Below, in pieces: positions 39,122 to 54,128 of a stretch of DNA of 64,000 bases. The DNA comes from Algoriphagus sanaruensis (GTDB taxonomy: Bacteria; Bacteroidota; Bacteroidia; Cytophagales; Cyclobacteriaceae), in the NCBI RefSeq assembly GCF_001593605.1, contig NZ_CP012836.1, positions 2,670,501-2,734,500 on the forward strand, written 5' to 3'. The translations under genes and the position numbers were made by a program. The notes below the pieces were generated by a model. The model saw only the letters and a list, made by a program, of their open reading frames with translations. It was not told the DNA's origin and ran no database searches. Numbering within the stretch: the first letter of the stretch is position 1; each line of letters opens with the position of its first letter.

Positions 39122-39665
39122 TTTTTGGAATTAGATTTTGGCGGGAAATGGTTTATGTTTTCAGACTTAGACTGCCCTTCTTGAACATATACCCGTGCTC
39201 AACTCCATTCGGGGTCTTTAACCCTTCAATCTCTACAATACCACAAAAAGACCACGAAGTGGTCAAAATTCTCAATAGCCCTAGGTGACCCCGATAGCCT
39301 CCGGGGCGGGGGAAAATGAATGGATTTCAAATTCGATTTTGCCAACCCCTAATGAGCCCGTCCCGATGAGCGCAGCAATTTCGGGAGGTTGAACATGTGT
39401 GAAAAAACCGACCCGGTACGGGTCAGATAGGGGTAAAAAATTCCAATACCTAATATAATCCGATCCGCCGCGGCGGATTCGAATAAATACGGGTGTCCAA
39501 TTTTTACTACCCAGATGACATCCCTACGGGATGAAAGAGAATTATAAATTCCTAGTAATGAAAAAGCGTAGATCATTCTACGCTTAGTCCACGGCCCACA
39601 TAATTCTTCCAAACGGGAAAAATCCGAGTCAAACAAACGGTATACAAAAACAAACAACAAACTCC
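39122..39665. repeat. Hairpin-rich intergenic island, no gene
   Basis: This 544-bp gap holds at least seven separate short palindromes: GACCAC-gaa-GTGGTC (39250-39264), CCCCG/CGGGG (39289-39306), TCCCGA/TCGGGA (39361-39386), GACCCG-gta-CGGGTC (39410-39424), ATCCGCCGCGGCGGAT (39463-39478), CATCCC-tac-GGGATG (39519-39533) and the terminator hairpin at 39564-39585. Reading frames crossing it are short and have no protein-like character. Base composition is more GC-rich than the flanks around the palindromes. Confidence 0.75.
39559..39585 (-). terminator. Terminator after the GAF-PAS-HisKA gene
   Basis: AAGCGTAGA (39564-39572) pairs with TCTACGCTT (39577-39585), a 9-bp stem with a 4-nt loop. The A-run on the left gives a T-run in the minus direction. 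Confidence 0.65.
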
Positions 39666-53652: not shown

Positions 53653-53726
53653 GGCGAGGTAGCTCAGTTGGTTAGAGCGCAGGATTCATAACCCTGAGGT
53701 CACGGGTTCAACTCCCGTCCTCGCTA
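53653..53726 (+). tRNA. tRNA-Met (anticodon CAT)
   Basis: A 74-nt cloverleaf: acceptor GGCGAGG/CCTCGCT (G1-T72), D arm GCTC/GAGC, anticodon loop TTCATAA (CAT), T arm ACGGG/CCCGT with TTCAACT loop. The anticodon stem CAGGA/CCCTG has a non-Watson-Crick A31-C39 pair. CCA is not encoded (ACAA follows). The D-loop AGTTGGTTA resembles elongator tRNA-Met; a tRNA-Ile2 (lysidine-modified CAT) cannot be excluded from sequence. The 3' end plus terminator is duplicated 367 bp downstream. Confidence 0.92.
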
Positions 53727-53761
53727 CAAAGGCTTTCTATTTTGAAAGCCTTTTTTATTTT
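53703..53761 (+). repeat. 59-bp direct repeat, copy 1 (tRNA-Met 3' end plus terminator)
   Basis: It begins at the CGGG of the T stem and runs through the acceptor strand and terminator into the T-run. It is identical over 59 bp to 54070-54128. The GIY-YIG start codon lies 7 bp after this copy. Confidence 0.93.
53728..53757 (+). terminator. Terminator of tRNA-Met
   Basis: AAAGGCTTTC (53728-53737) pairs with GAAAGCCTTT (53744-53753), loop TATTTT, followed by T-rich sequence. An identical hairpin occurs in the downstream copy at 54095-54120. Confidence 0.85.
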
Positions 53762-53767
53762 TAAGGC

Positions 53768-54040
53768 ATGGAAGATAATTTTTTCGTGTATGTACTTTAT
53801 TCAATTCCTTTTAGAAAGACCTACACGGGTATGACCTCAGACCTAATTACAAGATTTAAATTCCATAATGGAAAGTCTTTGAAAGGATTTACGGTGAGAT
53901 ATCGACCTTGGATCTTGGCTCATGTAGAATATTTTGTCTTAAAATCAGATGCCATTAAAAGAGAAAAAGAGCTTAAGTCCGGAAAAGGAAGAGAATGGAT
54001 AAAATCTGTAATTATTCCTCGAATAATCAATCTTTATTAA
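53768..54040 (+). CDS. Small GIY-YIG family nuclease
   Basis: A 90-residue single-domain protein. The first motif is Y8-V-L-Y (GIY position), the second Y19-T-G (YIG position); Arg29 and His33-Asn34 follow as in the family, and the catalytic Glu lies in the helix KREKELKSG (Glu66 or Glu68). C-terminal basic residues SGKGREWIK complete the fold. Stand-alone proteins of this UvrC-N/YhbQ-like subgroup probably nick or cut DNA, but targets are mostly unknown. It is bracketed by exact copies of the tRNA-Met 3' end, which points to a homing-type role. Confidence 0.9.
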   Translation: MEDNFFVYVLYSIPFRKTYTGMTSDLITRFKFHNGKSLKGFTVRYRPWILAHVEYFVLKSDAIKREKELKSGKGREWIKSVIIPRIINLY

Positions 54041-54053
54041 ATATGAATTCCTA

Positions 54054-54067
54054 TCCGCCGCGGCGGA
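54054..54067. repeat. GC-rich perfect palindrome TCCGCCGCGGCGGA
   Basis: A 14-bp perfect palindrome between the GIY-YIG stop and the second copy of the tRNA 3' end, 2 bp from that copy. The same 14 bp occur inside the palindrome at 39463-39478. Confidence 0.85.
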
Positions 54068-54069
54068 CG

Positions 54070-54128
54070 CGGGTTCAACTCCCGTCCTCGCTACAAAGGC
54101 TTTCTATTTTGAAAGCCTTTTTTATTTT
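54070..54128 (+). repeat. 59-bp direct repeat, copy 2 (orphan tRNA-Met 3' end plus terminator)
   Basis: Exact copy of 53703-53761 without the 5' two thirds of the tRNA, so it cannot form a tRNA. It marks the downstream end of the GIY-YIG element. Confidence 0.93.

Follow-up and report, generated by a model that had tools for sequence, protein, structure and literature searches.

A tRNA gene that is followed by a small nuclease gene and then by an exact copy of its own 3' end raises the question of what holds these parts together. Such a locus lies in the window, by which we mean the whole stretch of 64,000 nucleotides that was analysed. ARAGORN finds an intact tRNA-Met (anticodon cat) at 53653–53727 on the + strand, a sequence with a single match in its own genome (E 1e-8). 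The longest exact repeat around it is 59 bp, with 53703–53761 recurring at 54070–54128 at a spacing of 367, just as had been read from the letters; a chance origin was rejected, since an exact 59-bp repeat within 2.5 kb far exceeds what chance would give. The repeat consists of 25 nt of the tRNA 3' end, one more than the 24 first counted, followed by 34 nt of trailer that includes the terminator hairpin (53728–53753 behind the intact tRNA and 54095–54120 behind the second copy, all on the + strand).

Between the two copies, on the same strand, are a 90-amino-acid GIY-YIG nuclease ORF (53768–54040) and the palindrome TCCGCCGCGGCGGA (54054–54067), both of which had been noticed before. What had been overlooked is the short stretch between them at 54045–54053 (gaattccta), which by eye matches the tRNA anticodon arm (ggattcata) at 7 of 9 bases and is fuller in relatives. 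Because of this resemblance we read copy 2 as the 3' part of a decayed pseudo-tRNA with its own terminator, in which the 3' strand of the anticodon arm has been swapped for the palindrome, and the relatives, where the palindrome sits in the same place, show this replacement clearly. The GIY-YIG gene is the only ORF of at least 40 amino acids between the repeats, besides a mechanical ORF of 57 amino acids that overlaps the second one, and no integrase gene was found among such ORFs. This anatomy supports the original prediction in so far as the unit is associated with a tRNA, has no integrase, keeps the tRNA intact and has a nuclease as its sole gene. The nuclease gene is not part of any intron or intein, as the intact tRNA comes first and a separate ORF follows; a tRNA split by the element, as by a group I intron with a homing gene, was rejected on the same grounds, ARAGORN finding an intact tRNA before the ORF both in the window and in other such loci. 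The flanks are ordinary: a START-type gene precedes the unit, an Nramp-type transporter gene and rplT (L20) come after it, all three named by resemblance, and START, Nramp and L20 recur around tRNA-Met throughout the genus. When up to two mismatches are allowed, TCCGCCGCGGCGGA has two matches in the window, at 39464 and 54054, both of them exact, where shuffled sequences lead one to expect 0.04. The first of these (39464–39477) lies in a stretch without an adjoining tRNA.

The protein matches PF01541 (GIY-YIG) with E 9e-12 over residues 5–73 of its 90, and this is its sole Pfam match, so that it carries no Y1 (RAYT) transposase. The predicted structure is a single small alpha/beta domain with a mean pLDDT of 85. 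Residues Y8, Y19, G21, R29, H33, E66 and K70, which we take to be catalytic, are invariant across eight aligned tRNA classes, and the Met ORFs are under purifying selection (median dN/dS 0.11 in the 55 pairs with dS <3, out of 231 pairs from 22 Met ORFs without stops). The nearest solved relatives are the UPF0213 proteins 1ywl (E 5e-12) and 1zg2 (1.2e-11) and the SLX1 protein 7cq2 (6.5e-8), and to our knowledge neither UPF0213/YhbQ-like nor SLX1 proteins are known as tRNA-linked; SLX1 chains (183–324 residues) are also far longer than the window protein. Free-standing GIY-YIG homing endonucleases carry a separate DNA-binding part besides the catalytic domain, whereas no separate DNA-binding domain that could explain specificity was found in the 90 residues here. 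A search of 50,697 phage records with the window protein gave no match and a search of plasmids gave one, in Azospirillum; spread by phages or plasmids was rejected for this protein, the lone plasmid match coming from an unrelated organism.

The arrangement is repeated within the same genome. PF01541 has nine matches there, seven above the cut-off, and two of the seven lie within frames of 602 and 471 amino acids. Four of the remaining five, all small, follow a same-strand tRNA: tRNA-Met, tRNA-Ala(ggc) and tRNA-Val(tac), the last with two in tandem, one of which has an internal stop. For the fifth (L002), 1.5 kb was read in both directions and contains no tRNA. The Ala and Val ORFs are followed by a pseudo-tRNA of the same kind in which, by eye, a hairpin replaces the anticodon arm.

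In the genus, which from the named relatives we infer to be Algoriphagus, matches were found in 62 of 72 genomes. Among the matches listed we read 93 loci (4 from the genome of the window, 29 that the search returned and 60 that were fetched), and a same-strand tRNA stands upstream in 78 of them, at a distance of at most 70 bp in 55, at most 100 bp in 57 and at most 300 bp in 73. In none of the 93 was an opposite-strand tRNA seen within 1 kb. With two tRNAs in the 64 kb of the window, only about 0.2 percent of randomly placed points would lie behind a tRNA on the right strand and no more than 100 bp from it. At L050, L082 and L098 some altered tRNA copies were included in the count, and each of these loci also has a tRNA-Ala(ggc) upstream. 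The 15 loci without a tRNA at the usual place comprise four that start within 340 bp of a contig end (L022, L025, L039, L056), two with the tRNA on the opposite side of the ORF (L074, L087) and nine with no tRNA over at least 1.47 kb (L002, L040, L048, L051, L064, L068, L085, L091, L092). On the genus protein tree of 110 units, the 95 that are tRNA-linked have eight tRNA identities (Met, Ala, Asp, Leu, Val, Arg, Asn and Thr) and require seven changes, the minimum possible, with four units whose nearest tRNA is altered (three unassigned, one Ala(agc)) scored as Ala. A scan of named genomes with the Met clade alone as profile gave 44 Met-type loci, of which 38 have a tRNA-Met upstream; of the remainder, five start within 340 bp of the end of their stretch and one (L306) has a tRNA-Arg behind it.

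The same holds well beyond the genus. We sampled the phylum, which judging from the named relatives is Bacteroidota, evenly with 198 genomes that are each at least 90 percent complete, and found matches in 126 genomes and in 71 of 102 genera, with up to 21 per genome (E 1e-8). The 67 phylum loci read (27 of the 30 returned, the other three being from the same genus, and 40 from the upper part of the list) contain 95 units, of which 63 have an upstream tRNA, at most 100 bp away in 44, adding Gly, Pro, Ser, Cys and Lys to the hosts. Among the other 32 there is a mirror form, in which the pseudo-tRNA comes first, then the ORF and then the intact tRNA (Ser at L230, L236, L240, L244, L250 and L257, Leu at L246, Ala at L231). 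Genus and phylum together give 195 proteins of at least 60 amino acids, 149 with a tRNA upstream, 14 with one downstream and 32 with none, a class that includes L074, whose frame runs into the tRNA. The 163 labelled proteins, with 13 amino-acid identities, require 27 changes compared with a mean of 110.5 and a lowest value of 103 in 100 shuffles, and the 72 phylum labels alone require 20 changes for 12 identities, where the minimum would be 11; the trees rest on 77 to 81 columns. Protein clade and tRNA identity thus correspond exactly on the genus tree, and in the phylum the correspondence, though less strict, is still strong. Because the other phylum loci are high-scoring matches, we also took two genomes with every match at E 1e-6 (15 and 9 matches in 10 and 5 loci), picked for being a single contig and rich in matches. 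An intact tRNA adjoins 10 of these 15 loci, 7 of 10 in the first genome (Asn, Asp, Cys, Pro, Ser twice and Leu) and 3 of 5 in the second (Met, with five ORFs, Ala and Phe); the remaining five have no adjoining tRNA, and some of them lie, by eye, amid dispersed repeats.

Some loci without a tRNA have surroundings of their own. At L228 and L229 (genomes G125 and G232) the RNase P RNA gene (Rfam RF00010) is immediately preceded by a small GIY-YIG ORF, and on the far side of the ORF at L228 the beginning of the RNA gene is seen by eye again, in inverted orientation; a scan of L228 for direct repeats, the only kind scanned for, found none. L048, L051, L068, L085, L091, L225 and L253 form a separate GIY-YIG clade without tRNA, and in several of its loci the reading past the stop resembles, by eye, a four-helix-bundle protein of the rRNA intervening-sequence type; Rfam found no rRNA in the six loci of the clade that were scanned, L068 included. 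At L002, L092, L313, L314 and L321 the tRNA-less gene appears by eye amid dispersed repeats like GTCATTGCGAG...GAAGCAATCTT, perhaps a REP-like partnership of repeat and nuclease.

The second tRNA copy of the window is likewise a general feature. A copy of the tRNA follows the ORF in 133 of the 156 units with an upstream tRNA, and 130 of the 133 reach the tRNA 3' end, with the threshold set at the 95th percentile of a control stretch 700 bp further on. This percentile was used because the control is contaminated, its top scores being array loci and one second intact tRNA; that intact tRNA is the highest control, and only 1 of the 156 units scores above it. Most of the relatives read adjoin a tRNA and carry a copy of the same tRNA, as had been anticipated. 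Since the insertion positions from gapped alignments proved coarse, the hairpins were counted directly: within 95 nt past the domain, in loci that passed, a perfect GC-containing hairpin of at least 6 bp occurs in 102 of 141 units (at least seven of the 102 being terminator-like by eye), compared with 7 of 133 controls further on and 10 of 141 shuffled sequences. The letters of the hairpins vary while their pairing is kept (TCCCGATTCATCGGGA, TCCCGCTAGCTAGCGGGA, TCCGCCGATTGGCGGA and so on).

A typical unit consists of a GIY-YIG ORF and a pseudo-tRNA, is bounded by the sequence of one tRNA and stands beside an intact copy of that tRNA. In the Met pseudo-tRNA the stretch from after CAT-A to the variable loop is replaced, and in those of Ala, Asp, Val and Asn, among the units listed, it is the anticodon arm; in the same units the ORF often ends on the TAG of the pseudo-tRNA D arm as its stop codon. 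The 5' half of the pseudo-tRNA is gone in the window, as it is in many other Met units. At L031, L018, L038 and other Met loci pseudo-tRNA units are also seen upstream of the intact tRNA-Met, three of them in tandem at L031, and their similar spacer may hold a promoter. In these upstream Met copies the D arm is replaced as well. The segment that is missing is the anticodon arm where the pseudo-tRNA lies on the 3' side and the D/T loops where it lies on the 5' side. The 367-bp minimal element of the original prediction is one unit of a family that also forms tandem arrays, units without an ORF and upstream pseudo-tRNAs. Cutting of the tRNA 3' end by the nuclease, as first proposed, is probably not a sufficient account, since the 3' end is intact in both copies and it is the anticodon arm or the D/T loops that the pseudo-tRNAs lack.

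The tRNA-Met locus allows the presence and absence of the element to be followed between genomes. The tRNA sequence has matches in 64 of 72 genomes and in all 50 of the best quality, with one full-length match each in nearly all; the locus was fetched from 60 genomes and the tree covers 55, with G001, G002, G025, G035, G036 and G040 left out because they lack the flanking genes. The order PNP-S15-LptG-START-tRNA-Met-(ORF)-(Nramp)-L20 is broadly kept, with another order in G005 and G064. Counting the 50 tree genomes with more than 400 bp after the tRNA, and scoring the ORF by a tblastn match above 35 bits, the Met ORF is present, whole or broken, in 20, which requires at least 17 changes on the tree, gains and losses together. 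Many Met loci without the ORF retain pseudo-tRNA arrays, and draft assemblies break at such arrays. Clean empty loci are seen by eye in G005, G009, G034, G048 and G052, so that the two findings on which the original prediction had hung, empty tRNA-Met sites in related genomes and homologues at tRNA ends elsewhere, are both in place. In the close pair G012 and G024 the inserted blocks start at the tRNA start and end where the host terminator resumes behind the pseudo-tRNA; G012 may be the genome that lost the element, because an older remnant lies further down.

The tRNA itself also varies. Two main T-arm alleles of tRNA-Met, which is single-copy in most of the 55 genomes, require at least 12 changes on the species tree, and only three loci (G010, G014 and G044) mix both allele words, as gene conversion would lead one to expect. 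In G010, an allele-A host, there is an array with allele B; the intact tRNA is of allele A and stands between B-type pseudo-tRNAs, and the last pseudo-tRNA, before the trailer, is A-type. The T-arm allele was rejected as a marker of element-bearing genomes, no association being seen (ORF in 14 of 32 genomes with allele A, 7 of 20 with B and 0 of 3 with C).

Taking the same-strand adjacency, the hairpin-replaced arms, the arrays, the empty sites and the frequent gain or loss as established, we read the window unit as a member of a putative family of selfish nuclease elements on Bacteroidota tRNA genes, each sort tied to one tRNA and driven by recombination in the manner of SegB, a reading to which we give an even chance of being right. 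The bare SLX1/YhbQ-like GIY-YIG domain would nick or cut its own tRNA gene, most likely in the segment absent from the pseudo-tRNA (the anticodon arm in the 3' type, the D/T loops in the 5' type), which it would possibly meet in hairpin form. In the ensuing repair an element-bearing template would pair through its intact tRNA with the left end and through its pseudo-tRNA with the right, so that the ORF would be copied in and an intact tRNA would remain. The same pairing inside one chromosome would make and collapse arrays, and the hairpins would render the pseudo-tRNA both uncleavable and harmless. Genomes that carry the element and genomes that lack it have the same intact tRNA, so that the target would survive the insertion, which argues against textbook homing. 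This is also where the scheme is weakest, as the intact tRNA of the donor is unprotected. In addition, the A-type tRNA of G010 between B-type pseudo-tRNAs needs further conversion beyond the simple repair scheme.

SegB is a free-standing GIY-YIG homing endonuclease of T-even phages (PMC13096335, Nat Commun 2026). According to passages of that paper, SegB of phage T6 cuts within tRNA genes, with 83 sites mapped genome-wide, 23 of which carry the motif RAWTSGAAC; its catalytic activity is required for the tandem amplification of a 718-bp unit of tRNA-Tyr and segB, and the repeats of tRNA and nuclease gene arise by recombination at a microhomology between the tRNA 5' end and the 3' end of the nuclease gene (PMC13096335). 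To our eye the motif reads as the T-loop in reverse. The authors leave open by what means the donor avoids being cut, and in the same passages they point to weak cutting of donor alleles (PMC13096335). As far as these passages go, both systems have a GIY-YIG gene beside tRNA genes and form tandem units, whereas SegB is phage-borne and its authors, who surveyed viral proteins, report no preference for a tRNA isotype (PMC13096335), and the units described here lie in bacterial chromosomes with clades tied to tRNA identity. The window protein is moreover a bare domain of 90 residues and most units contain a pseudo-tRNA, while the passages on SegB show no hairpin-replaced pseudo-tRNA. The architecture of the units agrees with a process like that of SegB, and the difference that we regard as key is that the target copy carried by most of them has lost its anticodon arm or has had a loop filled.

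The alternative that survives best is an old and mainly vertical association, in which tRNA-like repeats recombine to give loss and duplication, any action of the nuclease on the tRNA gene is irrelevant and exchange between species is homologous recombination of the whole locus; we consider it unlikely, though it deserves serious weight. Distances between elements and between hosts are correlated (Mantel r 0.46 across 17 genomes, a value that none of 2000 permutations reached), and much of the history is therefore vertical, with losses. Algoriphagus also shares its Met locus with relatives from within its family (L222; Belliella, Cecembia, Echinicola, Litoribacter, Mongoliibacter), and repeats by themselves could yield arrays. 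What a purely vertical history explains poorly is the purifying selection on the ORF and the residues that stay invariant over eight tRNA classes. Outside the family, the Met-linked loci L202, L205, L212, L219, L227, L234 and L305 are found without START, LptG, L20 and Nramp, within about 1.5 kb per side or less, where diverged genes could be missed. The divergence at synonymous sites cuts both ways. The element is clearly low in dS in only two of the 14 closest pairs, and in these there has been exchange with another species at the locus. In G010–G069 the dS is 0.23 for the element compared with 0.70 for PNP, 1.42 for START and 2.63 for Nramp, so that the near flanks are far more diverged than the element itself, whereas in G004–G037 (element 0.29, PNP 1.94) the close stretch extends into Nramp (0.56) and L20 (0.29), which is what plain homologous recombination would give. 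In G039–G041 the element resembles its flanks; the element of G006–G007, with a dS of 0.75, is more diverged than PNP, START and Nramp, and in G001–G028 it has 0.18 compared with 0.03 for L20, the sole flanking gene compared.

It is more doubtful still that the nuclease or the pseudo-tRNA acts at the RNA level, on the cognate tRNA or as its mimic, and is kept for a benefit to the host, either like a toxin-antitoxin pair or as a guard against a tRNA-cutting defence, which we regard as improbable. Such a role would agree with the clades that track tRNA identity, with the same-strand place behind the tRNA and with pseudo-tRNA arms that are exchanged hairpin for hairpin. Intact tRNA copies multiply too, as at tRNA-Asp, where G012 and G024 have two and three intact tRNAs and one and two ORF units, respectively, and passages of the SegB paper describe an amplified tRNA-Tyr that overcomes a tRNA-cutting defence (PMC13096335). 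However, the solved GIY-YIG relatives are SLX1 or uncharacterised UPF0213 proteins, the 5' half of the pseudo-tRNA is lost in the window and in many Met units, and presence is erratic among near relatives. SLX1 acts on DNA.

Least probable, and in our view very unlikely, is that the nuclease is a helper of REP-like hairpins that enter tRNA-gene loops and one another, with the pseudo-tRNA as their landing site: TCCGCCGCGGCGGA is indeed dispersed (it occurs in 53 of 72 genus genomes, copy numbers range from 0 to 28 and the reversed pattern is absent from all 72), hairpins do nest inside hairpins (Val, G070, L213) and some tRNA-less small GIY-YIG genes adjoin other repeats, but the palindrome counts do not closely track the Met ORF (G023 and G027 have the ORF without an exact palindrome, G044 and G067 have 15 palindromes each without a Met ORF), and the hairpin letters vary by tRNA type whereas the place of the ORF does not. 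A palindrome pattern with the wrong spacing found nothing; it is the correct pattern that is dispersed.

A selfish nuclease element on tRNA genes, which is the reading we prefer, can also be set beside other known systems. Tyrosine-integrase elements at tRNA 3' ends leave a direct copy of that end on their far side, so that the tRNA stays whole. The far-side copy is common to both, but the present units have no integrase, carry a hairpin in their far-side pseudo-tRNA and also occur in a mirror form on the 5' side. REP sequences with RAYT combine dispersed palindromes with a single small nuclease gene, a Y1 transposase; the likeness lies in just these two components, whereas the nuclease here is GIY-YIG and its units are tRNA-bound. 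The double-hairpin elements of fungal mitochondria insert into tRNA loops. They are suggested in passages of two papers to be mobile elements (PMC5910586, PMC4618339), and their hairpins are GC-rich and look mobile like those described here, which also nest in one another; they belong to organelle DNA and no nuclease gene is named in those passages, whereas the present units are chromosomal and have one. In the open literature, outside which lie most subscription papers and all bioRxiv preprints, we found no paper on chromosomal tRNA-linked GIY-YIG elements, and phage SegB is the nearest precedent.

We suggest, with somewhat less than even confidence, that these elements are parasites of tRNA genes throughout the phylum, in which a bare nuclease would read the tRNA gene sequence or a cloverleaf-like hairpin, pseudo-tRNAs would serve as uncleavable, non-decoding templates and repair would reshape both the copy number of the tRNAs and their T-arm alleles. 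The related units next to the RNase P RNA gene suggest that structured RNA genes may be targets more generally. If this is true, the elements would make up a large unnamed class of mobile elements, here of 367 bp, housed on essential tRNA genes with each sort on one tRNA, and would be a bacterial counterpart of phage SegB. Such a class would explain many stray small GIY-YIG genes and tRNA fragments, as well as some of the assembly breaks at tRNA genes, and they would offer a compact system for how a nuclease of 90 residues discriminates between tRNA genes and coexists with its own target.
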